From an uncultured Lachnospiraceae bacterium (GTDB lineage Bacteria; Bacillota; Clostridia; Lachnospirales; Lachnospiraceae), in assembly GCA_947630595.1 (NCBI GenBank), contig CANRIG010000029.1, forward strand, positions 1 to 36,093: a DNA stretch of 36,093 nucleotides, in the 5' to 3' direction. The notes beneath the pieces are model-generated. The model searched no databases, was not told the origin of the DNA, and saw only the letters and a program-made list of their open reading frames with translations. A program made the translations under genes and the position numbers. Below, piece after piece: positions 6,689 to 29,290 of this stretch (position 1 is the stretch's first letter; every line of letters starts with the position of its first letter).

Positions 6689-9060
6689 AAGCCGGAGAAA
6701 ACAAAGCTCCGGAAACAGAAGAAAGCAAAAATCTGGAAACGGAAGAAAGTAAAAATCCGGAAACGGAACAAAGAAATAATTCAGAAGCGGAAAAAGACAA
6801 AGTTCCGGAAGCGGAAGAAAATCAGGCGAAAAGCATGCAGGATAATATGAGACAATTAGCCTGCACGGCCGGAAGATGGGCGGCAGCGGCGGCTTATGCG
6901 CTGCTGCTGTTCTGGTACTGTTCGCACCCTGATTACTACGGCGGCGGGGGCCTGGCGGCGCTGTTTTCCAGTCCGCGGTCGTGGCTGATGATTGCGGGCA
7001 CCACGGTTCTGATCGCCGCGAGCCTTGCGCCGAACCGGCTTTCCGGGCGGGCGAACCGCCTGTTCGGGACGTTCTGGTTTGCCCTGGCCCCGCTGATGGT
7101 ATATTTTTCCTTGTTTTATCTGAATGCGGTGCGGTTTCAGATCGTATTTTCGCAGCTCAACCGCATCGCCCTGGCGTTTACGTTCTGGTTTTTGTATCTG
7201 GTGCTGTTTTTCCTGCTGCTGGTCACCGGGAGCGTCCGCTGGTCGGTGATTTTGCTGGCGGTGCAGGTGGCGCTGCTTGGCATCGTCAACTGCTTTGTCG
7301 TCGCATTCCGCGGCATGGCGCTCTCGGCCGGCGACCTGTTTTCCCTGCGGACGGCGCTGACGGTCGCCTCGTCCTATGAATACGAAATTGACTGGTATAT
7401 TTATGCGGAAATATACCTGACCCTGACGCTGTGCATGCTCAGTATGAAAATCCGCCCCTTCCGCGTGTTCGGCTGGAAAGCGCGGGCGGCCGTGCTGTGC
7501 GTGTGGCTGGCGTTTGCGGGCACGTTTTATCACATATGCTGCAGGACGAGCTTTCTGGAGGATCACGACATCCGCTCGGAGGGCTTCACGCATCAGCTCC
7601 GCTACCGCAAATACGACATGATTTTCACGACGCTGTGCACCTGCTTTTATCTGGCGGCGGACAAGCCGGAGGGGTATTCCGCGGAGCGCGTGGAGGAGAT
7701 CGCGGCGGACTACATCCCGCTGGGGGACGCGGCAGCACAGGCAGACCCGGATGAGGATGCGGCGGGATCCGATACAGGAACGGTGCAGAATGCAGCGGAA
7801 CCAGATATAGGAACGGTGCAGAATGCAGCGGAACCGGATATAGGAACGGTACAGGATGCGGCGGAATTGGATACGGGGACGGAGCAGAGTACAGCAGGGA
7901 CAGCGAATGCGGAGACGGGAACAAATGCAGGCTATGAGACGCCGAACCTCATCGTGCTGATGAACGAGTCCTTTGCGGATTATACAGACGTGGGCAAAGG
8001 CATTGCGTTTATGGAGGACTGCATGCCGTTCATCCACGGGCTCACGGAAAACACGATCAAGGGGACGGCGTACGCCTCCATTTTCGGGGCCAACACGCCC
8101 AATTCCGAGTATGAATTTCTAACCGGAAATACAATGGGCTTCCTGCCGCAGTCCTCGGTCGGCTTTCATTTGTTTGTGCGCGGAGCCATGCCCTCGCTGG
8201 CCTCGGAGCTGAAAAGCGCGGGCTACAATACGCTGGCGATACACCCTTACCGAGGCACCAATTACCGCAGGAATATCGTCTATCCGCAGATCGGATTTGA
8301 CACTTATTATACGCGGCTTGATTTTCACCACCCCGACTATATCCGCAATTATATCTCGGATCAGGAGCTGGTGGACCGCATCATCGAGGAGTATGAAAAA
8401 AATCTGGAAACCGGGAAACCGCTGTTCAGTTACAACGTGACGGTGCAGAACCACGGCGGCTACAGCCGTTCCAATACAAAAAATCTGAAAGAGGTAATCC
8501 ACGTGCTGACGCCGGGAATCGACGAGCCGGAGACGCAGATTCACGCCAATCTGATCCATGCCACGGACGAGGCGTTTGAGCATCTGATTGAATATTTTTC
8601 CACTCAGGAGGAACCGACGGTGGTAATCATGTTCGGCGACCACCAGCCGAATCTCGGGGAAGCGACCTACGAATACCTGCTGGGGAACGAGTCGGAGCTG
8701 ACCATCGAGGAGCAGATGGAGAAATACAAGGTGCCGTTCATCGCCTGGGCGAACTACGATATTGAGGAGGAGACTATCGAAAAGACGAGCATCAACTATC
8801 TGTACAGCGTCCTGGCCGACCGCCTGAACCTGCCGATGACCGGATACCAGAATTATCTTCTGCAGCTGAGCGAGGAACTGCCGGTGCTGGCGGCAGGCGG
8901 ATACTGGACGAAAGACGGCGCATTTTATGCGCTGAACGACGAGGAATCGCCATATTTCGACAAAGTCAATGAATATCACATATTAGAATATAATCATATA
9001 TTCGGTAAAAAACACCGCTGCCTGGAGCTGTTCAACCTGCGCGGGAGCGCCGGCAATTAA
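6676..9060 (+). CDS. LTA synthase-type phosphoglycerol transferase, repeat-expanded
   Basis: This 794-residue membrane enzyme belongs to the LtaS/sulfatase-like family, which builds polyglycerol-phosphate chains from phosphatidylglycerol outside the cell. About six hydrophobic helices lie between residues 55 and 300, followed by the extracellular catalytic domain from about 424. The LtaS metal and nucleophile positions can be placed: Glu431 in LMNESF, Thr474 in GANTPNSEYEF, and Asp655-His656 in FGDHQPN. The spacing is close to that in S. aureus LtaS. Unusual are an acidic cytoplasmic N-terminus of five 8-residue repeats and an 11-residue repeat linker before the catalytic domain. The ATG at 6676 overlaps the end of the broken dehydrogenase by 13 bases, implying translational coupling in the intact state. 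A GTG at 6631 is a less likely start. Confidence 0.9.
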   Translation: MSEIKAGENKAPETEESKNLETEESKNPETEQRNNSEAEKDKVPEAEENQAKSMQDNMRQLACTAGRWAAAAAYALLLFWYCSHPDYYGGGGLAALFSSPRSWLMIAGTTVLIAASLAPNRLSGRANRLFGTFWFALAPLMVYFSLFYLNAVRFQIVFSQLNRIALAFTFWFLYLVLFFLLLVTGSVRWSVILLAVQVALLGIVNCFVVAFRGMALSAGDLFSLRTALTVASSYEYEIDWYIYAEIYLTLTLCMLSMKIRPFRVFGWKARAAVLCVWLAFAGTFYHICCRTSFLEDHDIRSEGFTHQLRYRKYDMIFTTLCTCFYLAADKPEGYSAERVEEIAADYIPLGDAAAQADPDEDAAGSDTGTVQNAAEPDIGTVQNAAEPDIGTVQDAAELDTGTEQSTAGTANAETGTNAGYETPNLIVLMNESFADYTDVGKGIAFMEDCMPFIHGLTENTIKGTAYASIFGANTPNSEYEFLTGNTMGFLPQSSVGFHLFVRGAMPSLASELKSAGYNTLAIHPYRGTNYRRNIVYPQIGFDTYYTRLDFHHPDYIRNYISDQELVDRIIEEYEKNLETGKPLFSYNVTVQNHGGYSRSNTKNLKEVIHVLTPGIDEPETQIHANLIHATDEAFEHLIEYFSTQEEPTVVIMFGDHQPNLGEATYEYLLGNESELTIEEQMEKYKVPFIAWANYDIEEETIEKTSINYLYSVLADRLNLPMTGYQNYLLQLSEELPVLAAGGYWTKDGAFYALNDEESPYFDKVNEYHILEYNHIFGKKHRCLELFNLRGSAGN
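6697..6816 (+). repeat. 24-bp coding repeats, LTA synthase N-terminus
   Basis: Five consecutive 24-base units encode variants of ESKNLETE. They lie before the first membrane helix, so the encoded tail should be cytoplasmic, acidic and disordered. Unit length is a multiple of three, so copy changes keep the frame. Confidence 0.8.
7771..7902 (+). repeat. 33-bp coding repeats, LTA synthase linker
   Basis: Four 33-base units (starting 7771, 7804, 7837, 7870) encode variants of DIGTVQNAAEP between the last membrane helix and the extracellular catalytic domain. The middle two are the most alike, which points to recent duplication. The repeats lengthen the tether of the catalytic domain. Confidence 0.88.
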
Positions 9061-9076
9061 ATGAGGGAGGCGTATC

Positions 9077-9270
9077 CGGGCAGGATGGATACAGTCAGGG
9101 CAAGGAGAATAAAGCCAGGCGAGGCGGACATTCGGGCAAGGCGATACAGTCAGGCGAGGCGGTACATCCGGGCAAGGAGAATAAAGCCAGGCGAGGCGGG
9201 ACATCCGGGCAAAGCGAATAAAGCCAAGCGAGCAGGCGCAGCCGGACGGAGCGAATGCAGCCAGGGCGGC
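9077..9270. repeat. Degenerate intergenic array of ~36-bp units
   Basis: About five imperfect units of 34-37 bases share a core such as GGGCAAGGAGAATAAAGCC followed by AGGCGAGGCGG. They fill the gap between the convergent LTA synthase and corrinoid adenosyltransferase genes. Open frames on both strands here are repeat artefacts. The array has none of the spacer structure of CRISPR. Confidence 0.75.
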
Positions 9271-9274
9271 GTCC

Positions 9275-9814
9275 TTAGCGCTCAATTCCCTTTCGCGCCG
9301 GAATCCCGCGGTCAAACGGATGCTTCACCTTGCGGATTTCGGAGACATAGTCGGCGGCCCCGATCAGCTTTTCGCCGGGGTTCTGCCCGGTGAGAATGAC
9401 CTCGAGTTTCTGCGGCTTGTTTTTAAGAAAATCGAGCAGCGGGCCTTCCTCCAGAAGCCCGGCGCGGATGGTGTAGATGATTTCGTCGAGGAAGAGCACA
9501 TCGTAATCCTCCCGGCAGGCCTTCTGAGTCACATATTGAAATTGTTTCGTGTAAAAGGCCAGCCGCTGCGCCTTTTCCTCCGGCGTCATGCGGAAGCTGA
9601 ATTTTTCCTGTTCCAGGCCGTCGACGATCGTGATATTTTCGGAGAGCGAGAGCACCTTTCGCTCGCTCGTGGAGTTGTCTTTCATAAACTGATAAATCAG
9701 CACGCGGTACCCATACCCCGCCGCGCGCGCACACAGCCCCATTCCTGTGGTGGTTTTGCCTTTGCCGTCTCCGCAGTAAATGTGGATGAGGCCGGTTCTG
9801 GTTTCGTTTGTCAT
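9275..9814 (-). CDS. cobO: Corrinoid (cob(I)yrinic acid a,c-diamide) adenosyltransferase
   Basis: This 179-residue cytosolic enzyme transfers the adenosyl group of ATP to the reduced corrinoid, making the coenzyme form of B12. The CobA/CobO/BtuR family is recognisable from GLIHIYCGDGKGKTTT, a P-loop at residues 8-23 used in the family's unusual orientation. Further segments are VLIYQFMK, DVLFLDEI (Walker B-like) and LTGQNPGEKLI. Length is normal. The start ATG is preceded by AAAGGAC on the minus strand. It stands alone, with no other cobalamin gene in the window, so it more likely serves salvage than a local biosynthetic operon. I see no cobalamin riboswitch in the roughly 85-base upstream region. 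Confidence 0.93.
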   Translation of the reverse strand: MTNETRTGLIHIYCGDGKGKTTTGMGLCARAAGYGYRVLIYQFMKDNSTSERKVLSLSENITIVDGLEQEKFSFRMTPEEKAQRLAFYTKQFQYVTQKACREDYDVLFLDEIIYTIRAGLLEEGPLLDFLKNKPQKLEVILTGQNPGEKLIGAADYVSEIRKVKHPFDRGIPARKGIER

Positions 9815-9932
9815 GGGAAAAGTCCTTTCTTTTGCAGGTGATTTTGCCGTGCGGCAGCCGGCAGTGAAACAGCGCCGCAGGCGAATTGCTGCACTGATGC
9901 TATGTTAGCACAACAGGGAAAAAAAGGAAAGC

Positions 9933-9961
9933 TGGAAAAACCGCGGTACATGAAGTATAAT
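9933..9961 (+). promoter_or_regulatory. Promoter with very short leader
   Basis: TGGAAA (9933-9938) and TATAAT (9956-9961) are 17 bases apart. Transcription would begin near 9968, only about 13 bases before the ATG at 9981, leaving just enough room for GGAGG at 9970-9974. This also rules out the in-frame ATG at 9960, which lies inside the -10 box. Confidence 0.68.
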
Positions 9962-9980
9962 GGATTCATGGAGGATGACC

Positions 9981-11741
9981 ATGAAAGAACGGCTGAAAAA
10001 AATAATAAGAGAATATTGGAATATTCGGGTTGAGATATTGCTGACGGCGGCGTTTGTCTGCGTGTTTTTTGCGTTAAACGGCGGGCAGATCGCGCAGGAG
10101 GTGTTTGCTCCGGTATCCGGCGATCGCGCAGAAGCAGTGGAGGCCGCGGGAGCAGGGCAGGGGGCCGGCAACGCAGAGGGTGAAGACGGCGGCGCGTCGA
10201 AGAAAGATTCCGCAGGTGCCAAAGACGGAACATCCGCGTCCGACAACGCGGATGGTGAAGACGATAGTATGTCGAAGAAGGATTCTGCGGATGGTCAGGA
10301 TGGCGGTACATCGAAGAAGGATTCTGCGGATGCCAAAGCCGGAACATCCGCGTCCGACAATACGGATGGTGAAGACGATAGTATGTCGAAGAAGGATTCT
10401 GCGGATGGTGAGGATGGCGGCGCATCGAAAAAGGATTCTGCGGATGCCAAAGACGGAACATCCGCGTCCGACAACGCGGATGATGAAAACGGCAGCGCAA
10501 CGAAGAAGGACTCCGCAGATGCCAAAGCCGGAACGTCCGCATCCGACAACGTAGATAACGAAAACGACAACACAGAGGATGAAGACGGCGGCGCGTCGAA
10601 AAAGGATTCCGCGGATGCCAAAGACGGAACATCCGCGTCCGACAACACGGATAGTGAAAACGACAACGCAGATAGTGAAAACGGCGACGCGGGCAGTACG
10701 GAGAGCGGAAGCCCCGACGACGCGGAAGGCAGCTCGGAAATCACCGCTTCCGGCGAGATCAGGGTCAGCGATATGCGGAATGGATATGAGCTGGTGGTGT
10801 ACCGGCCTGCTCCGTTTGCACAGGAGACACAGGAAACCGAAACGCTGCGGGAGCTTGTGGATACCAGGGAGATGCGGGGCTACCGGCGGCTGTTGTCGCA
10901 GGAGCAGATGGAGCGTCTGGGCATCCGGGAGCAGGAAGTAGCGGAGCGGATGGGACTTACCGAGCAGGAGCTGGCGGAGTACCAGGCGAAAGAAATTTAT
11001 CCGGCCGGGCGCTCCTTTTCTGTGCTTGAGGAGATGCTGTCGAACCGCATTTCCGGTTACGACGGGGACTGGTCCGTCTACGTCAAAAATCTGGAGACGG
11101 AGGAGAGCCTTGTGCTCAACGACGTGCCGATGAAATCGGCGAGCGTCATGAAGCTGTTTATCATGGGCACGGTTTACAAGGCGTTCGAGTCCGGCGAGCT
11201 GGAGCGGACGGAGGAAGTGATGTCCCTGATGAACAGCATGATCACGGTCAGCGACAACGAGGCTTCCAACCGGCTGCTGCAGCTGTTGGGAGAGGGCAGT
11301 TATGCGGACGGCATCGCCAAAGTGGACGAATTTATTCAGGAATACGGCTTCAGCGACATGACGGTGGAGTACAACGGCTTCAACAATTCGGAGACGGTGA
11401 TTGATTCCGGCCACTCCAACCAGGTGTCGGCGAAAGACTGCGGAAAGCTCCTGGAGGATATTTACCGCCGCAGTTGGGCGAACCGTTCGGTGAGCAACGA
11501 GATGGAGGAGATGCTGCTGAACCAGCAGACCCGCTACAAGATTCCGGCCGGGCTGCCGGAGGGCGTGCTCTGTGGCAACAAGACCGGTGAGATGGACACG
11601 ACCGAAAACGACGCGGCGATCGTCTATGCGGAGAACTGCGATTACATACTGGTCGTGCTTTCCAGCGACTGGAACAGCAAGGACGAGGCGGTTTCGCGCA
11701 TCAAGTCCCTGTCCGGAATGGTGTATGAATATTTGAATTAG
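9981..11741 (+). CDS. Membrane-anchored beta-lactamase-like serine hydrolase
   Basis: This 586-residue protein has a short basic N-terminus, one membrane segment (about residues 15-36), a long acidic repeat region (about 70-240), and a C-terminal serine hydrolase domain (about 350-586). The domain carries the penicillin-recognising motifs in order: SVMK (nucleophile Ser388, Lys391), SDN (424-426) and KTG (534-536). It resembles class A beta-lactamase-like proteins, but I do not see a convincing ExxLN omega-loop; the equivalent stretch reads NGFNNSETVIDSGH. It could be an envelope carboxypeptidase or esterase, or a degenerate lactamase; resistance should not be assumed. The start at 9981 follows GGAGG by 6 bases. 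The next gene is 21 bases downstream and probably co-transcribed. Confidence 0.87.
   Translation: MKERLKKIIREYWNIRVEILLTAAFVCVFFALNGGQIAQEVFAPVSGDRAEAVEAAGAGQGAGNAEGEDGGASKKDSAGAKDGTSASDNADGEDDSMSKKDSADGQDGGTSKKDSADAKAGTSASDNTDGEDDSMSKKDSADGEDGGASKKDSADAKDGTSASDNADDENGSATKKDSADAKAGTSASDNVDNENDNTEDEDGGASKKDSADAKDGTSASDNTDSENDNADSENGDAGSTESGSPDDAEGSSEITASGEIRVSDMRNGYELVVYRPAPFAQETQETETLRELVDTREMRGYRRLLSQEQMERLGIREQEVAERMGLTEQELAEYQAKEIYPAGRSFSVLEEMLSNRISGYDGDWSVYVKNLETEESLVLNDVPMKSASVMKLFIMGTVYKAFESGELERTEEVMSLMNSMITVSDNEASNRLLQLLGEGSYADGIAKVDEFIQEYGFSDMTVEYNGFNNSETVIDSGHSNQVSAKDCGKLLEDIYRRSWANRSVSNEMEEMLLNQQTRYKIPAGLPEGVLCGNKTGEMDTTENDAAIVYAENCDYILVVLSSDWNSKDEAVSRIKSLSGMVYEYLN
10194..10700 (+). 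repeat. Composite coding repeats, serine hydrolase stalk
   Basis: Alternating units of about 75 and 39 bases encode SKKDSADAKDGTSASDN plus an Asp/Glu/Asn/Gly tail, and shorter SKKDSADGEDGGA forms. They are rich in Lys, Asp and Ser without hydrophobic residues, so they should form a flexible stalk between the membrane anchor and the catalytic domain. The units are similar enough to suggest ongoing duplication. Confidence 0.85.
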
Positions 11742-11762
11742 TGGGTTCACGGAGGAGGCAGC

Positions 11763-12029
11763 ATGTTCCGTTTGTGGGGAAAAATCTGGAAGGACAGCCG
11801 GCTGGTCCGGGATACTGTTTACGAGGAAGCCAGCGACGATACGCGCACGCACAAAATCTTCCGCGGGCTGGAGGAAATCTGCCGTGAATTTGACCTTGGC
11901 CGGCCGATCTGGCTGGATGCGACGGTGACGGAATTTCAGCGGCGCAGCAAGGCGCGCTTTTACGCGGACAGTTTTATAGAAGAGATTGATTTTGATTATC
12001 TGGAGATTCAGGTGCTGGAGGAGGGGTAA
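11763..12029 (+). CDS. Small conserved-looking protein of unknown function
   Basis: I do not recognise this 88-residue protein. It has no signal peptide or membrane segment. It starts MFRLWGKIWKDSRLVRD, has a central segment IFRGLEEICREFDLGRPIWL, and ends with an acidic stretch (FIEEIDFDYLEIQVLEEG). It is probably a compact cytoplasmic alpha/beta protein. The start is firm: GGAGG lies 7 bases before the ATG. It follows the serine hydrolase gene by 21 bases and is likely its operon partner. The stop codon lies just before a large inverted repeat. Confidence 0.75.
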   Translation: MFRLWGKIWKDSRLVRDTVYEEASDDTRTHKIFRGLEEICREFDLGRPIWLDATVTEFQRRSKARFYADSFIEEIDFDYLEIQVLEEG

Positions 12030-12037
12030 AATCAACG

Positions 12038-12165
12038 CAATGAGCCGTGCACCTCAAGAGCTGCGCTCTTTCGGTCGCGGGCATTCGCCCTATCAATCAA
12101 AGTGGAGTCACAGATATATGGGCAAGCCCATATCTGTAACTCCATTTGATTGGCACGGCTCATTG
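12038..12165. repeat. 128-bp imperfect inverted repeat element
   Basis: The outer arms CAATGAGCCGTGC (12038-12050) and GCACGGCTCATTG (12153-12165) are perfect inverted repeats. Inner arms 12094-12123 and 12126-12152 pair with three small differences. The left side holds about 43 extra bases, including AAGAGCTGCGCTCTT, itself a small hairpin. It begins 9 bases after the stop of the preceding gene. It could be a miniature mobile element, an extended terminator, or part of a minus-strand RNA. No transposase is nearby. Confidence 0.7.
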
Positions 12166-12217
12166 CTTTCGCGAAACGTGAGGAGTGCCCCCGGCGTCTG
12201 GTACACCGGAGGCTATT

Positions 12218-12244
12218 ATGAAAAAATTTATCAAGTTGGTTTGA
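12218..12244 (+). other. Eight-codon frame with good ribosome site
   Basis: CGGAGG (12207-12212) sits 5 bases before an ATG that opens MKKFIKLV and stops at TGA. The peptide looks like the first residues of a signal peptide, so this may be the stump of a deleted gene; a leader peptide is the alternative. Evidence is only the short sequence. Confidence 0.3.
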
Positions 12245-12270
12245 GAATATCTCTCTCAAGAACTATCTAC

Positions 12271-12303
12271 ACTATAGCAGTGAAATGTGAACGAAATGTG
12301 AAC
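12271..12303 (-). promoter_or_regulatory. Response regulator-type direct repeat and -10 box
   Basis: On the minus strand GTTCACATTTC occurs twice in perfect tandem (12303-12282), spaced one helical turn. It is followed five bases later by TATAGT (12276-12271). Eleven-base direct repeats next to a -10 box are typical of PhoB/OmpR-family regulators. No minus-strand gene lies downstream, so it may be orphaned or drive a noncoding RNA. Confidence 0.45.
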
Positions 12304-12485
12304 AAACAATAAAAAATCAGTAAAATAAACAAAAAAATATTTTAAACCGTTCTGTTTTTATCCGAAATGCACAGGCTGATTTTCGCGGCGGGATCGGTAT
12401 TTCTGTCAGAAATTACAAGAACTGCCCGATTTACATGCAAAAATTGGTTTCTTTTATCCGGCAACTGTAGTAAAATAAAGGGAAA

Positions 12486-12532
12486 GCTCCCGGACTGCGT
12501 ACGCGGACAGGCCGCGTAAGGGCTGCGGGAGC
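12486..12532 (+). promoter_or_regulatory. Leader hairpin of nucleoside operon
   Basis: Outer arms GCTCCCG (12486-12492) and CGGGAGC (12526-12532) and inner arms TACGCGG (12500-12506) and CCGCGTA (12512-12518) are perfect, separated by internal loops. A -10-like TAAAAT lies at 12471-12476, so the stem would form at the 5' end of the operon mRNA. It could protect the transcript or control initiation. Confidence 0.5.
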
Positions 12533-12560
12533 CATACATTTTATAAAGGAGGACAAAGAG

Positions 12561-13280
12561 ATGAGTAATGGAAATACACCGACCCCGCACATCGGGGCAA
12601 AACCGGGGGATTTTGCGAAAACTGTTTTGATGCCGGGCGATCCGCTGCGGGCGAAATTTGTGGCGGAGACCTATCTGGAGAATCCGGTGCTGGTCAACAA
12701 CGTGCGCGGCGTGAACGGCTACACGGGCACCTACCATGGGAAAAAGGTTTCGGTGATGGCGAGCGGCATGGGCATTCCGTCGATCGGCATTTATTCCTAT
12801 GAGCTGTATCATTTTTATGATGTGGACAATATCATCCGCATTGGCACGGCCGGCTCCATGCACCCGGACCTGCACATCCGCGACGTGGTGTTCGGGATGG
12901 GCGCGTGCACCAATTCCAATTTCGCGGAGCAGTACCAGCTGCCGGGCACCTACGCGCCGATCGCTTCCTACGAACTGCTGGAGAAGGCGGTGGCGGCGGC
13001 GAAAGCGCTGGGCAGTGTCAATTATAAGGTCGGAAACCTGCTTTCCTCCGACGTTTTCTACAATGACAACGACCAGACGACGGCCCTGTGGATGAAGATG
13101 GGCGTGCTGGCGGTGGAGATGGAAGCAGCGGGACTGTACATGAACGCGGCGCGCTGCGGCAAGCATGCGCTGGCGATCTGCACGATTTCGGACAGCATGG
13201 TGACGGGCGAGGTGACGACGGCGGAGGAGCGCCAGTCGAGCTTCCACGACATGATGCGGATCGCGCTGGAGATCGCATGA
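12561..13280 (+). CDS. deoD: DeoD-type purine nucleoside phosphorylase
   Basis: This 239-residue cytosolic enzyme splits purine (deoxy)ribonucleosides with phosphate into base and (deoxy)ribose-1-phosphate. The hexameric DeoD family is clear from TPHIGAKPGDFAKTVLMPGDPLRAK at the start, GMGIPSIGIY, IRIGTAGSM, VEMEAAGLYMNA for ribose binding, and the catalytic Asp in CTISDSM near residue 204. Length is exactly typical. AAAGGAGG lies 8 bases before the ATG. It is the first gene of the nucleoside-salvage operon, and its stop codon overlaps an ATG in the frame of the phosphopentomutase gene, so the two are tightly coupled. Confidence 0.97.
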   Translation: MSNGNTPTPHIGAKPGDFAKTVLMPGDPLRAKFVAETYLENPVLVNNVRGVNGYTGTYHGKKVSVMASGMGIPSIGIYSYELYHFYDVDNIIRIGTAGSMHPDLHIRDVVFGMGACTNSNFAEQYQLPGTYAPIASYELLEKAVAAAKALGSVNYKVGNLLSSDVFYNDNDQTTALWMKMGVLAVEMEAAGLYMNAARCGKHALAICTISDSMVTGEVTTAEERQSSFHDMMRIALEIA

Positions 13281-13291
13281 TTGGAGGGCAT

Positions 13292-14467
13292 ATGAGCGTA
13301 AAACGTGTTTTTGTGATCGTACTGGACAGCTACGGCATCGGCAGCCTGCCGGATGCGGAGCGCTTCGGGGATGCGGGCGCCAACACGCTGGCGTCCATCG
13401 TCGGCTCCGGACAGTACGACACGCCGAATATGAGAGAAATGGGACTGTTCAACATCGACGGCGTGACCTGCCGGCCCGGCGTCGGCCGGCCGGCGGGCAG
13501 CTACGGACGGATGGCGGAGGCGTCCATGGGAAAGGACACCACGATCGGACACTGGGAAATCGCGGGCGTGATTTCGCCGGAGCCGATGCCGCTTTACCCG
13601 GACGGTTTTCCGGAGGAGGTGCTGGCGCCGTTTCGCGAGCAGACGGGGCGCGGCGTCCTGTGCAACCGCCCGTATTCCGGTACGGAGGTAATCCGGGATT
13701 ACGGCGGGGAGCACATGCGGACCGGTGACCTGATCGTCTACACGTCCGCCGACAGCGTGTTTCAGATTGCAGCGCACGAGGAGGTCGTGCCGCTGGAGGA
13801 GCTGTACGACTGCTGCCGCAAGGCGCGCGCGATTCTTACCGGCCGGCATGCGGTGGGCCGCGTGATCGCCCGGCCGTTTATCGGGCAGGAGCCCAATTTC
13901 GAGCGCACGCGCAACCGCCACGACTTTTCTCTGCTGCCGCCGCGGCGGACGATGCTCGTAAGCCTGCAGGAGCACGGCTTCGACACCTACGGCGTGGGCA
14001 AGATTTATGATATTTTTGCGGGGCAGGCGATCGCGCACACGACGCCGATTTCCGGCAATGAGGACGGCATGAACAAGACGCTGGCCCTGATGGACGAGGA
14101 TTTTCGCGGACTCTGCTTTGTCAACCTCGTCGACTTTGACATGGTGTACGGGCACCGCAACGACATCGACGGCTATGCGGCCGCGGCCACGTTGTTTGAC
14201 CGCCAGCTCGGAGAGATGATGAAAAAGATGCGGGAGGACGACGTGGTCATCATCACGGCCGACCACGGCTGCGACCCCGGATTTCCGGGCACCGATCACA
14301 CGCGCGAGTATACGCCGATGCTGATCTACGGCGCGCCGGTGCGCGCGGGCGTTTCCATCGGCACACGGGCGAGTTTTGCCGACATCGCTTCCACGGTGCT
14401 GGCGATGTTCGGGATTGAGGAAGCTCTGGACGGAACGAGCTTCTGGGACGAAGTGAAAGCGGAATAA
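13292..14467 (+). CDS. deoB: Phosphopentomutase
   Basis: This 391-residue enzyme converts (deoxy)ribose-1-phosphate, released by the nucleoside phosphorylases on either side, into the 5-phosphate. The alkaline phosphatase superfamily metal sites are visible: VIVLDSYGIGSLPDA at the N-terminus, MGKDTTIGHWE around the phosphorylated Thr, and TADHGCDPGFPGTDHTREY near the C-terminus. Length matches the family. The ATG at 13292 is only 4 bases after GGAGGG; an alternative in-frame ATG at 13277 overlaps the deoD stop but has no ribosome site. No deoC (deoxyribose-phosphate aldolase) is in the window, so the last catabolic step is encoded elsewhere. Confidence 0.96.
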   Translation: MSVKRVFVIVLDSYGIGSLPDAERFGDAGANTLASIVGSGQYDTPNMREMGLFNIDGVTCRPGVGRPAGSYGRMAEASMGKDTTIGHWEIAGVISPEPMPLYPDGFPEEVLAPFREQTGRGVLCNRPYSGTEVIRDYGGEHMRTGDLIVYTSADSVFQIAAHEEVVPLEELYDCCRKARAILTGRHAVGRVIARPFIGQEPNFERTRNRHDFSLLPPRRTMLVSLQEHGFDTYGVGKIYDIFAGQAIAHTTPISGNEDGMNKTLALMDEDFRGLCFVNLVDFDMVYGHRNDIDGYAAAATLFDRQLGEMMKKMREDDVVIITADHGCDPGFPGTDHTREYTPMLIYGAPVRAGVSIGTRASFADIASTVLAMFGIEEALDGTSFWDEVKAE

Positions 14468-14501
14468 ACGCACGGAAGGCGAAAGGCGGAGCAAAAGCGG
14501 A

Positions 14502-15155
14502 ATGAACGGCACGGAAAGCGAAGGGCAAAGCAAAATGAGCGGTGCGGAAAAGGAAGAACAGCGCAAAATGAGCAGCGCAGAAAAAGAAGAGCAGCGCGGA
14601 ATGAGCAGCGCAGAAAAGGAAGAGCAGCGCGGAATGAGCGGTGTGAAAAAGGAAGAACAGCGCGGAAAATGCGGCGCGGAACGTGAAAAACAAGACAAGG
14701 AATCGGGATGCGAACGCGCACACCTGGAAGAACTGGTGCGCCTGGCCTTTGCGGCGCAGAAGCGTTCCTACTCCCCGTATTCGGGATTTGCGACCGGGGC
14801 TGCGCTGGAAGCGGCCGACGGACGGGTGTTTCTGGGCTGCAACATCGAAAACGCGGCTTATTCCCCGACCAATTGCGCGGAGCGCACCGCGTTTTTCAAG
14901 GCGGTGTCGGAGGGCGTGCGCGCGTTCCGGCGGATTGCGGTCGTCGGCGGCTATCCGGGCCGGCCGGGCGACTACTGCGCGCCCTGCGGCGTCTGCCGGC
15001 AGGTGATGGCGGAATTCTGCGACGTGGATACGTTTGAAATTATTCTGGCGCGCGGGCCGCGGGACTACAAAATCGTGCGGCTGGCGGAGCTGCTGCCGCT
15101 GCACTTCGGGCCGGAGGATCTCGGCGCGCAGGCGGCGCCGCTTTCCGCAGAATAA
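14502..15155 (+). CDS. cdd: Cytidine deaminase with repetitive N-terminal extension
   Basis: This enzyme deaminates cytidine and deoxycytidine to uridine forms. The catalytic domain begins near residue 74 and is of normal size. Its zinc site is complete: NCAERTA with Cys125 and catalytic Glu127, and PCGVCRQ with Cys162 and Cys165. SPYSGFATGAAL and GCNIENAAYSPT are classic for the tetrameric class. Unusual is a 73-residue hydrophilic extension made of 11-residue repeats, which the tetrameric family normally lacks. The true start is uncertain, because several in-frame ATGs inside the repeats are preceded by purine-rich sequence; 14502 is the outermost ATG after the deoB stop, with only weak GGAG upstream. 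Operon position supports nucleoside salvage. Confidence 0.9.
   Translation: MNGTESEGQSKMSGAEKEEQRKMSSAEKEEQRGMSSAEKEEQRGMSGVKKEEQRGKCGAEREKQDKESGCERAHLEELVRLAFAAQKRSYSPYSGFATGAALEAADGRVFLGCNIENAAYSPTNCAERTAFFKAVSEGVRAFRRIAVVGGYPGRPGDYCAPCGVCRQVMAEFCDVDTFEIILARGPRDYKIVRLAELLPLHFGPEDLGAQAAPLSAE
14505..14702 (+). repeat. 33-bp coding repeats upstream of cytidine deaminase core
   Basis: Six 33-base units (starts 14505, 14538, 14571, 14604, 14637, 14670) encode variants of MSSAEKEEQRG. The third and fourth units are nearly identical. A more diverged copy seems to extend upstream to the deoB stop codon. Several units end in a purine-rich segment followed by ATG, so each copy could offer a start codon. 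Confidence 0.88.
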
Positions 15156-15203
15156 TAAGTGATTTTTGGAAAATGCGGCAGGCTGGGAAGGAGGACGGAA
15201 CAG

Positions 15204-22820: not shown

Positions 22821-22850
22821 TAGAGGATAAAAAGCCAAGGTATAAAAGAA

Positions 22851-22962: not shown

Positions 22963-22975
22963 GTTAAGTTTTCGG

Positions 22976-25900
22976 CTACCCGGTGATTCCGGTCAGGCGG
23001 TTCATCAGATCGTCGAGCGAGCTGGTGTCCGGTTGGTTGAAATTGTTTTCCAGGTTGTTGTTTGAATTTTCATTTCCTGAATCACTGTTACTAAGATAGT
23101 CACTGCCTGAATTACTGCTATTCAAGTTATTGCTTAAATTTCCATTGTTTGAATTATTACCTCCAGAATCACCACTGCTTGAACTCCCATTGTGTGAGTT
23201 ACCACTTCCCAAACTACCGTTACCTGAATTATCACTTAAATTTTCACTGTTCAAATTACCGTTTCCAAGGTTTCCATTGTTTAAATGATCACTACTTTGT
23301 ACATTGTTGTATATATTTGAATTGGAATTGGAACTATTTGTGTTTCCATCGGAAAGCGTTTCATCATGGAGCGCTTCGCTGCTGGTCTGGGTTTCTTCAC
23401 TGTGCGTCTGCAGTTTATCCTTTTGCTTGCCTTGATTAGTATGCCCGTCGTTTGCCTCTGCCGTTGTCTTTGTCTCCGACTCACTTTCAGCCTCTGGTAT
23501 CACGCCGTGTGTTCCATCGAGGAGGCCGGGATAGAACAGGATGGGACTGCGTTCGGTTTCCGGGGGCGCTTCGTGCAGTGGGCATTCTTTTTGGGGAACG
23601 GTTCCCCCGGCGAAATATTCCTCATAGGTATCGGTGCAGCCGCCGGGTACGGCGGGGCGATGGGAGTTGCGGCAGAGGGTGACGGCCTGCACGGTGTCGG
23701 GTTTTACGAAATCTGCGGTAGGCAGGCCGTCGTGAATCCGGTCCATGACGGCGGACCAGAGGTCTTTGCTGTAAGTGTGGCAGGTGGAAAAAAGCGGCAG
23801 GTCCTGATTGTTGTCGTATCCGCCCCAGACGCAGCAGGTGTAGTACGGCGTATAGCCGACAAACCAGATATCCTTATAATTGGAAGTCGTACCGGTTTTT
23901 CCCGACACGGGCTGGCCGGCGGCGTGAATCGCGCCGTAGGCGGTGCCGGAGGGGTCGGCGACCACATCCCGCATGACGTCGGTCAGCAAAAATGCGGCGT
24001 CCTCCGAGAGGACGCGCTGCGCCGCGCCGGAAGCTGCGTCTTCGATAGCCCGCGCCCGGATGTCTTCCGCGGACGCGCGCAGGTCGGTGTCTTTTGCGGA
24101 CACATGCAGGCTGGTATCGTCAGCGGACACGTGCAGGCCGGAATCATCGGTGGACATGTGCAGGCCGGAATCATCGCCGGACACGTGCAGGCCGGAATCG
24201 TCAGCGGACACGTACAGGCCGGAATCTTCCGCAGACACGTGCAGACCGGCATTATCAGCGGATGCACGCAAACCAGTGTCGTCGTCAACCTCGGACTGCT
24301 GCGTATTGTCTGCCAGCACATTTCCCTGGCGGTCGAGAATTTTGGTGAAAAATTTCGGCGCGCGGTAGACGCCGCCGTTGGCGATGGCGGCGTATGCGCC
24401 GCAGAGCTCCAGGTTGGTCACGCCCTGCGTGATGCCGCCGAGCGCCAGCGGCTGAATTACGTCGGAGGAAGAACCGTTTTCCGATTCATAATATTCATGC
24501 AGCGTACTGATGCCGAAATTCTGCGCATACTGAAAGCCGAGCCGCGGCGAAATTTTTGTGAGACATTTGACGGCGATGACATTGATCGAGCGGGTGATGG
24601 CCTCGCGAATCGTGACCGTGCCGGAATAATCTGTGATGTCCCAGTTGCTCACCGGCGTTCCGTCCTCATATTGATAAGGCTCGTTTTCGTAAGTGGTCGC
24701 AAGCGTCTGCCCGTCGGCGTCCAGCGCAGGCGCGTAGGCGGTGAGGATTTTAAACGTGGAGCCGGGCTGCCGCGTGGTCTCCGTTGCGCGGTTCAGCGTC
24801 AGGCTGGCCGTCTTTTCGCCGCGGCCGCCGACCAGGGCGCGGACATAACCGGTTTTCTGGTCGATGAGCACGAGCGAAGCCTGCGGCTGCGGCGAGAGCG
24901 TGAGCCGCTCGCCCAGCACTGTGAGCGTGTTGTTTTCGGAGTTGTCTTCTCCGTCTTTGCCTGCGCCTTCTTCTCCGGTATTTTCTCCATTTTTATTTGT
25001 GCTTTTTTCTTCATCTTTGACCGGGCTTTCTTCCCCGATACTTTCTCCATTTTTATTTGTGCTTTTTTCTCCATCTTGACTTGTATTTTCTGTTCCGTTA
25101 TCTTCCCCGTCTTCGTCAGTCCCATCTTTCCTATCATTTTCTTCATCCTTGCCTGCGGCGCCCTCCTCCAGAATATGCTCCCGGAATGCGTCCGCATACG
25201 CCTGCGCTTCCTCCTGCGAGGTACAGAGCAGGTTAAATGTCTCATTTTGTGTTTCGCGGATATAGCTGCGCAGCGCTTCCGAACCATAGTGCGCGGCCGT
25301 GCCGTCAGCGTCCGCCACGCTCAGCGCGTAGTCGATGCCGAACTCCGTTCCCTCCGGGAAATTGGCCGGATTCTGAAATTCCTCGTCGCAGATTTTCTGG
25401 ATTTCCGGGTCCTGCGCGGAAAAAATGCGCAGCCCGCCGCTGTAGACGGCGCGGTAAGCCTGTTCGGGCGAATAGCCCTTTTCCTGCACCAGCACGTCTG
25501 TGACCTGATCGATCAGCGCGTCCTCATAATAGGAATACGCCGATTCCTCGTACATACTGTTGTAATCATGGATGCGCGCGTAGACGTCGTCCGCCAATGC
25601 CTCATTTTGTTCTTCGGCTGAGATGTAACCCTGTTTCTTCATATAATACAGCACGGTTTCCCGGCGGCGCCGGTTGGCCTCCGGGTAAGCGATCGGATTG
25701 TAGCCGCTCGGATTCTGGGGAATCGCGGCGAGAACGGCGGCCTCGGAGAGCGTCAGCTCTGACACATCTTTGCCGAAATAGCGGCGGGCGGCGGCCTGCA
25801 CGCCGTAGCAGCCGGAGCCGAGGTTGATCGTGTTCAGGTAATCCTCCAGAATTTCCTCCTTGGAAATGCGCTTTTCAAGCTGCAGCGCCAGATACTGCTC

Positions 25901-26434
25901 CTGAATTTTGCGCTTAAAACGGTCGCGGAAGGAATCCTCCTGCGTCCATTCGGTAAAGACACTGTTTTTGATCAGCTGCTGCGTGATGGTGCTGGCCCCC
26001 TCCGAAAAGGAGCCGCTGGTGATGCCGGTCCAGAACGCCCGGGCGATGCCGCGCGGGTCGATGCCGCTGTGACTGTAAAAGCGTTCGTCCTCGATGGCGA
26101 TAACCGCTTGCTGCAGGGCGTCCGGGATTTCGGCGAGACTGACAATGTCGCGGTTGGAAGAGGCCAGCGTCAGCTTGCGCAGGTAATTGCCGTCGGCGTC
26201 GCAGATGTAGGTGGCGGACTCGCTCGGCGAAACGGTGATTGTGTCGATGTCGGGAGCGGTTGCGATCAGCCGCAGGACCATCCCCGAAAACAGCAGCAAA
26301 GCGGCGGCCGCAGCGATTCCGGACGCAGCCAGAATACGCTTCCAGGGCAGCCGCCGGAGCTGAAACACGGCCCCGTCTTCGCCCCTTTGCCGGTCAGAGC
26401 CCTCTTTTTTTCTGAACACCGGTTTTTTCCACAT
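22976..26434 (-). CDS. Class A penicillin-binding protein, repeat-expanded
   Basis: This 1152-residue bifunctional enzyme polymerises and cross-links peptidoglycan. It has a cytoplasmic tail, a membrane anchor (about 33-57) and a GT51 glycosyltransferase domain with IEDERFYSHSG (Glu115), GASTITQQLIKN and LEKRISKEEILEDYLN. The transpeptidase domain carries STFK (Ser559), SIN (616-618) and KTGTT (846-850). It is several hundred residues longer than typical PBP1a because of three low-complexity insertions. These are an acidic linker between the domains (about 425-505, a 20-residue repeat), a 9-residue repeat block between SIN and KTG (about 717-788), and an Asn/Ser/Gly-rich tail (about 1000-1130). 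All catalytic motifs are intact. The start follows AAGGAAG by 9 bases. It is divergent from the surface-protein locus. Confidence 0.94.
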   Translation of the reverse strand: MWKKPVFRKKEGSDRQRGEDGAVFQLRRLPWKRILAASGIAAAAALLLFSGMVLRLIATAPDIDTITVSPSESATYICDADGNYLRKLTLASSNRDIVSLAEIPDALQQAVIAIEDERFYSHSGIDPRGIARAFWTGITSGSFSEGASTITQQLIKNSVFTEWTQEDSFRDRFKRKIQEQYLALQLEKRISKEEILEDYLNTINLGSGCYGVQAAARRYFGKDVSELTLSEAAVLAAIPQNPSGYNPIAYPEANRRRRETVLYYMKKQGYISAEEQNEALADDVYARIHDYNSMYEESAYSYYEDALIDQVTDVLVQEKGYSPEQAYRAVYSGGLRIFSAQDPEIQKICDEEFQNPANFPEGTEFGIDYALSVADADGTAAHYGSEALRSYIRETQNETFNLLCTSQEEAQAYADAFREHILEEGAAGKDEENDRKDGTDEDGEDNGTENTSQDGEKSTNKNGESIGEESPVKDEEKSTNKNGENTGEEGAGKDGEDNSENNTLTVLGERLTLSPQPQASLVLIDQKTGYVRALVGGRGEKTASLTLNRATETTRQPGSTFKILTAYAPALDADGQTLATTYENEPYQYEDGTPVSNWDITDYSGTVTIREAITRSINVIAVKCLTKISPRLGFQYAQNFGISTLHEYYESENGSSSDVIQPLALGGITQGVTNLELCGAYAAIANGGVYRAPKFFTKILDRQGNVLADNTQQSEVDDDTGLRASADNAGLHVSAEDSGLYVSADDSGLHVSGDDSGLHMSTDDSGLHVSADDTSLHVSAKDTDLRASAEDIRARAIEDAASGAAQRVLSEDAAFLLTDVMRDVVADPSGTAYGAIHAAGQPVSGKTGTTSNYKDIWFVGYTPYYTCCVWGGYDNNQDLPLFSTCHTYSKDLWSAVMDRIHDGLPTADFVKPDTVQAVTLCRNSHRPAVPGGCTDTYEEYFAGGTVPQKECPLHEAPPETERSPILFYPGLLDGTHGVIPEAESESETKTTAEANDGHTNQGKQKDKLQTHSEETQTSSEALHDETLSDGNTNSSNSNSNIYNNVQSSDHLNNGNLGNGNLNSENLSDNSGNGSLGSGNSHNGSSSSGDSGGNNSNNGNLSNNLNSSNSGSDYLSNSDSGNENSNNNLENNFNQPDTSSLDDLMNRLTGITG
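24071..24286 (-). repeat. 27-bp coding repeats inside the transpeptidase domain
   Basis: Eight consecutive 27-base units encode variants of DSGLHVSAD. They lie between the SIN and KTG motifs of the penicillin-binding protein. The central units are the most similar and the flanking ones more diverged, the usual pattern of a growing array. An opposite-strand frame through the array is a by-product of unit length. Confidence 0.92.
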
Positions 26435-26711
26435 AAAAGCACACTTCCTTTCCGCTCATAAATTACAGTATTCCAGTTTTCAGGGGAAAATATGCGTCTG
26501 CAGGGCGACGTAAATTTATTCAAACAAATCTGACAATTTTAAAAAATTTACCCTCTGCAAAGCCAAAAATAATCCACCTAGCAGAGCATAAATTCCTGAT
26601 AAATTTTACTGCGCAGAAGAGAATATTTAGTCGAAAAAACCAGTGTTTTCAGACGAAAAATCCTTTCTTGTCGATTTGCACAAAAAGTTGCCCTTGAATT
26701 CAAAATTTTGA

Positions 26712-26865
26712 AGTTTTGGAGGGGCGTTTCAAGGGAAGCGTTTTTCCCTTACGGTCAGCGGGTAAATCCGGTAAATGGGGCGATAAAGAGCTTTTCGGGT
26801 TTTTCCGGCAGGGTGTTCCGTAAGGGAAAAAACAAGGGAAGAAATCTGCTTTTTCCCTCCCAAAA
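26712..26865. repeat. Intergenic inverted-repeat element
   Basis: GTTTTTCCCTTACGG (26740-26754) is inverted at 26818-26833 with one extra base. GTTTTGGAGGG near 26713 is inverted at about 26854-26865 as CCCTCCCAAAAC. The 45-base arms flank a 63-base centre. It occupies the 700-base gap between the divergent penicillin-binding protein and surface-protein genes. The rest of that gap is AT-rich sequence with no supported gene. Confidence 0.55.
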
Positions 26866-26872
26866 CGCCCGG

Positions 26873-26964
26873 AAAACCCCGTAAATACGGGCTTTTTCCG
26901 AAAATCAGTCAGCAAATCCACATTTGCATACTAACGCAAAAAAGCCCGTAAAATCGGGGCTTTT
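26873..26964 (+). terminator. Two terminator-like hairpins in a gene-free gap
   Basis: CCCGT/ACGGG at 26878-26891 is flanked by AAAA before and CTTTTT after. AAAAGCCC (26940-26947) pairs with GGGCTTTT (26957-26964). Both look like intrinsic terminators, yet no rightward gene lies upstream. They could end a noncoding transcript from the inverted-repeat element or insulate the downstream gene. Confidence 0.5.
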
Positions 26965-27133
26965 GAGCGCTGAGGAACAAGGGGAAAATGAAAAAACGGC
27001 CCCATATGAAGAAAAGGACGCAGACAGGTAATTTTATCAAAAATCTACGATTTCAGGTGGACAATATTTGGCCGATAAATCATATCGTAAGTTGATACAA
27101 TTGAGACAATTCTGTGGCAAGGAGGAATAAAAT

Positions 27134-29290
27134 ATGAAGAAGAGGAATGCAAACTGGAGACGTATACTGGCAGTGCTGCTGACGTCGGCGATGTTTTTGC
27201 AGGGCGCAGTCACAGCCGGAGCAGACGAGGCCGCGGAGAGCGAAGCGGCGCGGATCGCGGCGGAGAGTGAAGCGGCGCGGATCGCGGCGGAAAGCGAAGC
27301 GGCAAGGCTGGCAGCGGAAAGTGAAGCGCAGAGCGAGGCGGCAAGATTGGCCGCGGAAAGTGAAGCGGCGCGGATTGCGGCGGAACAGAGCGAAGCGGAA
27401 TCCAAAGCGGCGGCGGAGAGCGAGGCGGCAAGGCTGGCCGCGGAGAGCGAAGCGGCGGCAAAAGCGGCAGCAGAGAGCGAGGCAAAAGCCAAAGCAGAGA
27501 GCGAAGCGGCGGCAAAGGCGGCAGCAGAGAGCGAGGCAAAAGCCAAAGCAGAAAGCGAAGCGGCGGCAAAGGCAGCCGCGGAGAGCGAAGCAAAAGCCAA
27601 AGCGGAAAGCGAGGCGGCGGCGAAAGCGGCAGCGGAGAGCGAGGCAAAAGCCAAAGCGGAAAGCGAGGCGGCGAAAGCGGCGGCGGAGAGCGAGGCAAAA
27701 GCCAAAGCGGAGAGCGAGGCGGCGGCCAAGGCAGCGGCGGAGAGCGAAGCGGCGGCGAAGGCAGCAGCGGAGAGCGAAGCGGCAGCGAAGGCAGCGGCGG
27801 AGCAGAGCGAAGCGGAATCCAGGGCGGCAGCGGAGAGCGGGGCGGCTGGGGACAAAGCGGCGGAGATCAACGCTTTGCCCGGCACAAAGATCGCACCGGT
27901 CACCTACCACGTTACCTTTGAAAAGAACTCCGAGGAGCACGGCATCATCCGCGTGGAAAACCAGGAGATCAAAAAAGAGGACCTTGAGAAATACGAGAAG
28001 GAAGTCGCGCCGAACGGCGAATTCATCTTTACCGTACAGCCGGATAAGGGCTATAAGATCAAGAGCGTAAGAATCGAGGACAAGGACGTTCCCGAGACGA
28101 CGAATGAAAACGAGTACGAGATCGAGCCGGTGATCAGGGACGTCGAGATCAAAGTGGAATATGAAAAGCTTCCGGAGACCGATACCGGGGCGGCGGACAC
28201 CGGACAGAGCGAAACAAGCGAGGGCAGCGAAACAGCGCCGGAAGGCGGAGAGACGCAGGAGCCGGAGATCGAGAACGAGACGGAATTTAAATTCATGTTC
28301 CAGCAGGTAATCCTCCCGCTCGGCGGCGACGACGCCTGGGTGACCGGCGCCGAGGGCGAGAACCATTCCTGGCAGGTGCTGAACGAGAACGTGATCAGCA
28401 TCGTCGAGCAGGACGGCGCGCTGGCGCAGATCAGGGCAAACGCGGCCGGCGAAATTTTCCTGGCGCATTCTTATGCACTGGACGGCATGAACAGGATGGA
28501 AACCTTCCACGTGATCGTCACGGACGGCACGACGGAAGACGAGAATGAAGAGCTGTCGACGGAGACGTCGGAGACGGAAGCGAAGCCGGAGACCGGTGAA
28601 ACGATGACCGAAACGGAGGAATCGAAGACTGAGACCGAAGAAACAGAATCGGAAACGGAGGAGACGATAACCGAGGCGCCGGAAACGGAGACAGAAGAGC
28701 TGGAGGCGGAAACCGAGATCGGGGAAACCGAGACCGAGGGCGCGACGGAAATCGAAACAGAGCCGGAGAGCGAGCTGGAATCTGAAACAGAGCTGGAATC
28801 CGAAACAGAGACTGAGATCGAATCCGAGTCGGAGCTGGAGTCTGAGAGCGAGACGGAGAGCGAACTGGAATCCGGGACGGAGACAGAGGAAGTCAGAGAG
28901 CCGGATGCCGTGTACAACGACCCGGAGGTCAGCGTCACAGCGACCGCGCTGAAGGAAGGAGCGCTCCCGGAGGGCGCGCAGCTCAGCGTGGTGAAGCTCG
29001 CGGAAGGCACCCCGGAGTACGAGGAAGCGAAAGCGGCGGCGCAGGCAGCGGCAAACGCGAGTGAAGACGCAATTTATACATTTTATAATGTGACTTTTCT
29101 GGTAGACGGCATGGAATATGAGCCGGAGGACGGAACGGTAGCCGTCCAGCTGCAGCTCAAGAACCTGCAGGCAGCCCCGGGCATGAGCCAGAGCGTGCTC
29201 CACATCGAGGACACGGAGAACGGCAAGACGGCGGAGAACATTACACCGGCAGAAAGCGGGGATATCAGTTCTGTAGACGTTATATTCTGA
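27134..29290 (+). CDS. Secreted stalk-like surface protein with Ala/Glu/Ser repeats
   Basis: This 718-residue protein starts with a signal peptide (MKKRNANWRRILAVLL..., likely cleaved near residue 31). Residues 33-240 are Ala/Glu/Ser/Lys repeats predicted to be one long helix. Two small beta domains follow: about 253-343, resembling a repeat domain of surface proteins, and about 383-466, Ig-like. A Glu/Thr/Ser-rich acidic stretch occupies about 471-591. The last domain (about 596-718) resembles one found before SpaA modules in Lachnospiraceae surface proteins, and it ends abruptly at SSVDVIF. I see no LPxTG motif, membrane tail or other anchor, so it may be released, non-covalently bound or truncated. 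It precedes a second surface-protein gene with a similar signal peptide. The exact role is unknown. Confidence 0.82.
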   Translation: MKKRNANWRRILAVLLTSAMFLQGAVTAGADEAAESEAARIAAESEAARIAAESEAARLAAESEAQSEAARLAAESEAARIAAEQSEAESKAAAESEAARLAAESEAAAKAAAESEAKAKAESEAAAKAAAESEAKAKAESEAAAKAAAESEAKAKAESEAAAKAAAESEAKAKAESEAAKAAAESEAKAKAESEAAAKAAAESEAAAKAAAESEAAAKAAAEQSEAESRAAAESGAAGDKAAEINALPGTKIAPVTYHVTFEKNSEEHGIIRVENQEIKKEDLEKYEKEVAPNGEFIFTVQPDKGYKIKSVRIEDKDVPETTNENEYEIEPVIRDVEIKVEYEKLPETDTGAADTGQSETSEGSETAPEGGETQEPEIENETEFKFMFQQVILPLGGDDAWVTGAEGENHSWQVLNENVISIVEQDGALAQIRANAAGEIFLAHSYALDGMNRMETFHVIVTDGTTEDENEELSTETSETEAKPETGETMTETEESKTETEETESETEETITEAPETETEELEAETEIGETETEGATEIETEPESELESETELESETETEIESESELESESETESELESGTETEEVREPDAVYNDPEVSVTATALKEGALPEGAQLSVVKLAEGTPEYEEAKAAAQAAANASEDAIYTFYNVTFLVDGMEYEPEDGTVAVQLQLKNLQAAPGMSQSVLHIEDTENGKTAENITPAESGDISSVDVIF
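27452..27812 (+). repeat. 54-bp helix-coding repeats
   Basis: Four 54-base units from 27452, then one of 51 bases lacking a codon, then shorter units of about 30 bases, encode ESEAAAKAAA plus ESEAKAKA patterns. The 18-residue period equals five turns of alpha-helix. Older 9-residue AESEAARIA units precede them from about 27230. Neighbouring units are nearly identical. Confidence 0.88.

Follow-up and report, generated by a model that had tools for sequence, protein, structure and literature searches.

Short tandem arrays within and between the genes of an uncultured Lachnospiraceae bacterium

A contig of an uncultured Lachnospiraceae bacterium carries tandem repeats in one gene after another, which raises the question whether these repeats belong to the biology of the cell envelope or to a duplication process that acts on the genome as a whole. 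The initial annotation had proposed a general process of slippage or duplication under selection for frame and solubility, affecting mostly cell-surface proteins. The window analysed here is this whole contig (C29, 36,093 nucleotides) of a genome of 3.31 Mb in 151 contigs. The source organism is probably a gut bacterium. Nine of the 14 related penicillin-binding protein (PBP) loci with names come from 'Lapin' assemblies, labelled uncultured Lachnospiraceae, a name that would point to the rabbit as host.

Arrays in the window and in the wider genome

The window was scanned for tandem repeats with TRF, an array being defined by a unit of at least 9 bp and a score of at least 50. The arrays discussed below and the genes that carry them are as follows.

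6631-9060, plus strand: ORF of an LTA-synthase-like protein (Pfam Sulfatase)
6696..6820, plus strand: 24-bp array, 5.2 copies, in the N-terminal tail before the first membrane segment of this sulfatase-domain protein (TRF, Pfam Sulfatase)
7757..7895, plus strand: 33-bp array, 4.2 copies, in the LTA synthase linker from the membrane region to the sulfatase domain (TRF)
9090..9263, no strand assigned: 37-bp array (18/19 alternating), intergenic between the LTA synthase and a cobO-like gene (TRF)
9960-11741, plus strand: serine hydrolase ORF (PF13354), one predicted membrane segment
10179..10691, plus strand: compound array of 39/75/96/114 bp in the serine hydrolase stalk (TRF)
14456..14667, plus strand: 39-bp and then 33-bp array, starting over the stop codon of the preceding gene and reaching into the N-terminal extension of cytidine deaminase (TRF)
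22976-26434, minus strand: PBP ORF, carrying the 27-bp and 60-bp arrays
24056..24283, minus strand: 27-bp array, unit about SGLHVSADD, in the second PBP linker, inside the transpeptidase region (TRF, slot comparison)
24947..25077, minus strand: 60-bp array, 2.2 copies, in the first PBP linker (TRF, slot comparison)
27134-29290, plus strand: stalk protein ORF, carrying the 27/30/54-bp and 18-bp arrays
27221..27865, plus strand: Ala-Glu-Ser array of 27/30/54 bp, among other periods, in the stalk protein (TRF)
28772..28819, plus strand: 18-bp array (ELESET) in the stalk protein (TRF)

TRF recovered the in-frame arrays in every one of the five genes named by the initial annotation, and additionally found the 60-bp PBP array, the 18-bp stalk array and the 37-bp intergenic array, which had not been listed. 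That all units are multiples of three holds for the five named genes, and the units of all six indel-free arrays inside genes of the window are divisible by three. It does not hold for the window overall, where the unit of the 37-bp intergenic array is no multiple of three; this array is flanked by convergent stop codons (LTA synthase end at 9060, end of the cobO-like gene, PF02572, at 9275) and is located where frame does not matter. Within the stalk protein array, the sub-array at 27706-27865 contains indels and its consensus measures 61 bp. The stalk protein itself matched no Pfam family at E 0.001, and an Rfam search of the window gave no match at gathering score, so that no known RNA family was found in the intergenic array. 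Nor are all five carriers envelope proteins: cytidine deaminase is not one, and a membrane segment was predicted in four of the five array genes by a home-made predictor, which does not by itself give cellular location. From 29380 on the plus strand encodes a large surface adhesin-like protein in two same-phase frames (29380-30852 and 30856-36093) that are split by an in-frame stop, the second running off the contig end. These frames are likely the most surface-exposed product of the window, and TRF found no array of score at least 50 in them.

After merging, the 36 kb contain 15 arrays or 41.6 per 100 kb. Dinucleotide shuffles amounting to ten windows' worth of sequence (361 kb) gave 2 arrays with units of at least 9 bp and a score of at least 50, and about 0.2 arrays are expected by chance for one window length. 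For a wider view we sampled the same genome in 30 stretches of 20 kb (600 kb, 18% of the genome), 14 congeners in another 30 stretches (598 kb after exclusion of N) and other families of the order in 20 stretches from 10 genomes (385 kb), where one stretch measures only 4.9 kb. None of the contigs is a random choice, those of the own genome being its longest and those of congeners and order being named by earlier gene matches. All are sampled stretches of draft assemblies rather than whole genomes, with one strain of the species, and the comparisons are between species. Genes were called with a home-made codon-bias script, and the coding and non-coding labels therefore contain errors. With the thresholds used for the window, 167 arrays were found in the own genome, 99 in the congeners and 38 in the order sample. 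Array-carrying genes numbered 68 (472 called), 51 (449) and 23 (317), respectively; the called totals cover genes of at least 100 residues, and a few array genes are shorter. Per 100 kb of shuffled sequence, about 0.5 arrays were counted for the window, the own genome and the congeners; the shuffled order sample had 3.1 (12 in 385 kb).

Arrays inside genes follow a frame rule that is absent from non-coding DNA. In the own genome 81 of the 95 coding arrays and 23 of the 72 non-coding ones have a unit divisible by three (Fisher p 2e-12), and each of the 14 coding exceptions shows TRF indels or crosses a gene edge. Among indel-free arrays the unit length is a multiple of three in all 60 that lie wholly in genes and in 14 of the 53 non-coding ones, the latter share being the one predicted by chance. 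This bears out the proposal of a general duplication process under frame selection. Congeners gave 54 of 54 in genes versus 4 of 15 in non-coding DNA, and the order sample 16 of 17 versus 3 of 5, numbers too small to tell. The density of arrays differs as well, with 72 arrays in 70.5 kb of own-genome non-coding sequence (about 102 per 100 kb) and 95 in 529.5 kb of coding sequence (18 per 100 kb), i.e. nearly six times as many per length outside genes. The share of bases filled by arrays is 9.3% in non-coding and 2.1% in coding sequence of the own genome, 2.6% and 1.4% in the congeners, and 2.1% and 0.8% in the order sample. Gap orientation was assigned for 64 of the 72 non-coding arrays (8 were not assigned): convergent gaps hold 17 arrays in 6.9 kb, same-strand gaps 38 in 42.6 kb and divergent gaps 9 in 13.4 kb, convergent gaps being denser than divergent (p 0.008) and same-strand ones (p 0.027). 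Array density follows lack of constraint. Taken together, the frame rule in genes, its absence in non-coding DNA and the non-coding excess of arrays indicate that duplication is general and that the frame rule is the work of selection.

Placement in proteins and orthologue slots

A closer look was taken at 37 genes of the own sample with an in-frame array of score at least 90 wholly inside. No membrane segment was predicted in 16 of them, and 33 had a Pfam match at E 0.001, with L069 only below the curated cut-offs. The PolC array covers residues 231-256, between the N-terminal domain and a weak OB-fold match, both arrays of MutL lie in its linker, and MiaA has an N-terminal tail of repeated DETLI. 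The set further includes a phosphopantetheinyl transferase, a PfkB kinase and a HIGH nucleotidyl transferase, as well as NlpC/P60, SpoIID, amidase, D-Ala carboxypeptidase and solute-binding proteins. Placement in linkers and tails is a rule and not a law, since some arrays are structural repeats or lie inside domain spans. The choline-binding repeats of L076:3223-5214 are an ordinary structural repeat, the array of L070:8293-12639 is likely a coiled coil, and arrays lie within the domain-match span of YfhO (L159:3349-6234), a P-type ATPase (L165) and DUF6465 (L166).

Arrays occupy hydrophilic parts of their proteins, as the initial annotation had described: mean hydropathy is -1.01 in the arrays and -0.37 elsewhere in the proteins that carry them (48 arrays, p 1.8e-7), and 26 of the 48 fall into the lowest hydropathy fifth of the protein concerned. 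The linker unit of the PBP, SGLHVSADD, has an alternating pattern and looks less disordered than other arrays. Solubility selection in the strict sense, i.e. a choice of the most hydrophilic open frame, fared less well; the true frame is that frame in 23 of 76 arrays, with 17.2 expected by chance, a weak tendency. Between neighbouring copies pN/pS is 0.46 (95% 0.34-0.60) in the true frame versus 1.18 (0.96-1.46) and 0.83 (0.62-1.24) in the two shifted frames of the same 48 arrays, and earlier sets gave 0.38 (28 arrays), 0.50 (congeners, 19 arrays) and 0.70 (order, only 2 arrays). The array peptides are under purifying selection.

Orthologues share the slots in which arrays lie and fill them with different sequence. 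Across 26 PBP loci, window included, two linkers and a C-tail occur at the same places with different and often repetitive sequence, the first linker measuring 0 to 105 residues, the second 9 to 99 and the C-tail 51 to 227 (some C-tail lengths are lower bounds, cut by the locus end). Closely related species retain some of this sequence in common: the first linkers of L004 and L014 are 86% identical. The N-terminal tails of LTA synthases differ among congeners, their linker slot corresponding to 7757-7895 holds different sequence, and the stalks of serine hydrolase orthologues differ in both sequence and length. In six PolC sequences the linker is at the same place with different sequence. Of the 19 genomes of the genus 17 gave a RecJ match, which was split into in-frame pieces with extra DNA between them in 13 of the 17, versus one piece in 12 of 12 genomes outside the genus. 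An alignment of four RecJ sequences of the genus and two from outside located a roughly 92-residue insert in the core of the RecJ of the window genome (L182:3258-5219, minus strand), with most of a 78-bp array inside and at a site unique to it, and a loop after the HHE motif that is longer by 9 to 71 residues in all four genus sequences. The RecJ of G008 has inserts in four loops relative to that of G030.

In cytidine deaminase the array starts outside the gene, over the stop codon (14456) of the upstream gene, which we take to be deoB-like. Five in-frame ATG codons 33 bp apart (14502, 14535, 14568, 14601 and 14634) all lie inside the array, and the only other in-frame start codon upstream of the deaminase domain, with ATG, GTG and TTG considered, is GTG 14643, also in the array. 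None of 11 congener deaminases compared by eye has an N-terminal tail like that of the window. These positions suggest that a non-coding duplication was drawn into the deaminase protein, with a captured start codon. The window array before cdd has a parallel at L167:9964-10085, where a 25-bp array begins at the miaA stop codon and extends over the start of the frame called next. One congener cytidine deaminase (L130, G010:C86) carries an insert of about 30 residues inside the catalytic domain, elsewhere than the tail in the window.

Origin of the arrays and rival explanations

Of 25 young two-copy duplications 10 show microhomology of at least 4 bp, a length reached by 10 of 400 blunt duplications in simulation (Fisher p 9e-9), which makes slippage between short repeats likely. 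The median excess is just 1 bp and a rank test against the simulation gave p 0.075, and the microhomology at the duplication flanks is suggestive only. Replication slippage between short repeats is the likely birth event.

The units are unrelated in sequence, as had been noted for the window: among the 182 arrays of window and genome sample, only four pairs reach an E of 1e-3 or better when arrays in different places (different stretches, or separated by more than 2 kb) are compared. The recurrence of one unit at several places, as in a transposed satellite family, was thus not seen, and a mobile repeat family is rejected. The chance that the arrays are the product of such a family or of faulty assembly is practically negligible. 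It is true that the source assembly consists of 151 contigs and that one relative (L147) has an N run inside an array, but copies differ from one another in most arrays (mean TRF match 82% coding, 85% non-coding), differences that misassembly does not create, and for most arrays this explanation is already contradicted. The N run in L147 lies within the repeat stalk of a congener serine hydrolase, a sign that assemblies at draft level may break at these arrays or miscount their copies. In Rfam searches 5 of 30 own-genome stretches gave one match, away from arrays, and skipping-rope RNA (RF02924, 62.8 bits) was matched at L061:9608-9692 on the minus strand. The arrays might also be adaptive, length-variable spacers of surface proteins, selected for a change of reach or antigenicity between strains. 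Such a role would suit the window, where 12 of 13 coding arrays are in membrane-type genes with 7.0 expected, and two PBPs (L004 and L014) whose domains are 97.3% identical, with second linkers of 59 versus 16 residues. Over the 600-kb sample, however, 46 of 95 coding arrays are in genes with a predicted membrane segment and 39.9 are expected by coding length (p 0.21), arrays also occur in MutL, PolC, MiaA, RecJ and the deaminase, and 72 of 167 lie outside genes, so that we regard adaptive spacers as very improbable. The same counts do not support envelope targeting and speak against the earlier view that mostly cell-surface proteins are affected; envelope proteins are probably prominent in the window because of their long linkers and stalks and not because the process aims at them.

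We consider it quite probable that a genome-wide duplication process underlies the arrays, with a visible outcome shaped by selection and with envelope proteins not being targeted. Such a process would give rise to small tandem duplications (units roughly 10-130 bp long) in sequences without relation to one another. They would most likely be born by replication slippage between short chance repeats and would then gain further copies and diverge by point changes. Selection would set what stays visible. Between genes any unit length could persist, most where two genes converge, and inside genes the survivors would be stop-free units divisible by three, mostly in linkers, tails and loops, whose peptides would then be kept under moderate purifying selection. 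A continuing high duplication rate seems implied; the same picture could arise if duplications formed at an ordinary rate and their removal were unusually weak.

The array load differs widely within the genus. Rough values per 100 kb, from 20-80 kb sampled per genome, are 41.7 for G001, 40.0 for G013, 30.4 for G008, 5.1 for G017 and 1.7 for G012, and G015 had no array in one 20-kb stretch; the window genome has 27.8 (167 in 600 kb). Compared by 20-kb stretch, the median is 5 arrays in the window genome and 2 in the pooled congeners (p 0.002), which in turn lie weakly above the order sample (p 0.07). Its non-coding arrays are 2.9 times as dense as those of the congener pool (72 in 70.5 kb vs 26 in 74.9 kb, p 7e-7), and the coding counts are 95 versus 73 (p 0.10). 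As to a repeat density in line with related genomes, which the initial annotation had held against its own proposal, the window genome is above the congener pool, yet a high load is common to some congeners. The pattern has the look of a general mutational habit in some lineages of the genus and not of a device peculiar to surface proteins.

Two explanations address the cause of this load. An ordinary duplication rate with weak selection (small effective population, relaxed streamlining) may let arrays persist in the lineage, which we find possible but somewhat unlikely and which can partly coexist with the genome-wide process preferred above. It would accommodate loads from 0-2 to 42 per 100 kb among the sampled congeners as well as the divergence of the copies (coding mean match 82%), from which many arrays appear to be old. 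It also agrees with the repair genes of the window genome: MutS, MutL, the PolA 5'-exonuclease domain, SbcD and RecJ were all found above family cut-offs and in open frames. However, the pN/pS of 0.46 in arrays and the strict frame rule show selection at work, and the excess over the congeners is larger in non-coding than in coding sequence. The other explanation, a specific repair or replication defect (e.g. altered flap processing or polymerase) that raises duplications in array-rich lineages, appears quite unlikely. Array-rich and array-poor lineages occur within one genus, inserts are found in RecJ, PolC and MutL themselves, and the duplications with short flanking homology resemble those that arise in yeast upon loss of the flap endonuclease. 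Set against this, none of the five genes sought is missing, and repair-gene loss is rejected to that extent, presence not being the same as activity. The inspection of mismatch-repair genes proposed by the initial annotation revealed no defect, both MutS and MutL being present, and such a check is not diagnostic for units this long. Somewhat doubtfully, the genome-wide process may be taken further, to a continuing duplication habit of some lineages of the genus that would refill the same slots, including those of PolC, MutL and RecJ, with new peptides.

Known repeat systems and meaning

Phase-variable contingency loci likewise have tandem repeats in genes, where a change in copy number shifts the frame and the gene is switched off. 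Whole-unit changes in the arrays described here keep the frame instead, as follows from the indel-free in-gene units (60 of 60 in the sample, 6 of 6 in the window). The low-complexity inserts of Plasmodium resemble our arrays in being inserts in the coding sequence of otherwise conserved proteins, but those are mainly homopeptides, whereas here we deal with a bacterium, a window GC of 48-62% and minisatellite-like units. A continuing duplication habit as outlined above would be the bacterial counterpart of the insert-laden Plasmodium proteomes. The window arrays are minisatellites in that head-to-tail units of at least 10 bp occur above chance.

Arrays of this kind are known, as the 2019 survey of prokaryotic satellites by Subirana and Messeguer (PMC6749651) provides a precedent. 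According to the parts of it used here, more than 4 satellites per Mb occur in 18 of 119 bacteria, the bacterial values in its Table 1 go up to 23.0 per Mb, and the arrays are mostly unrelated and scattered, with long units mostly divisible by three, as in our case. An approximate re-implementation of the survey criterion, whose code may be looser than the original, gave 16 satellites in 600 kb or 26.7 per Mb for the own genome, 11.7 per Mb (7) for the congeners and 7.8 per Mb (3 in 385 kb) for the order. In the window, at least four regularly spaced copies are found by this approximate criterion in three places (units 27, 54 and 114), the other arrays having fewer or less regular ones. A paired coding/non-coding test, orthologue slots and a selection test are reported here and do not feature in those parts of the survey (PMC6749651). 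Periscope proteins, as far as described in the portion of the source drawn on (PMC8201768), are a further case of bacterial surface proteins with repeats and genes of varying length, but their repeats are folded SHIRT domains of a streptococcal surface protein. Our arrays have short, diverged, mostly hydrophilic units and are also found in cytosolic proteins and non-coding DNA; in the window these unit properties would speak against folded repeat domains. Protein tandem repeats are enriched with intrinsic disorder in a protein census (PMC7230257, consulted in part), whereas the process described here acts at the DNA level and is visible outside genes, too. In literature on Lachnospiraceae or Acetatifactor with repeats, the matches listed either did not contain the word Lachnospiraceae or were not on this subject by title. 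The kind is already known; what is new, to the extent of our searches, is how dense such arrays are in this genus, the pairing of coding with non-coding DNA in one test and the repeated refilling of slots in housekeeping enzymes.

The genome offers a natural experiment in which one duplication process is seen with a frame filter, in genes, and without it, in the gaps. It suggests that linkers, and in the case of cytidine deaminase even a start codon, can be born from duplicated DNA, and it calls for caution, as stalk repeats of envelope proteins need not be surface adaptations. With the wide range of loads among the sampled congeners, what sets the duplication load of a bacterium becomes a testable question and, if a duplication habit of some lineages is real, its genetic cause could be mapped, since array-rich and array-poor species occur in one genus.
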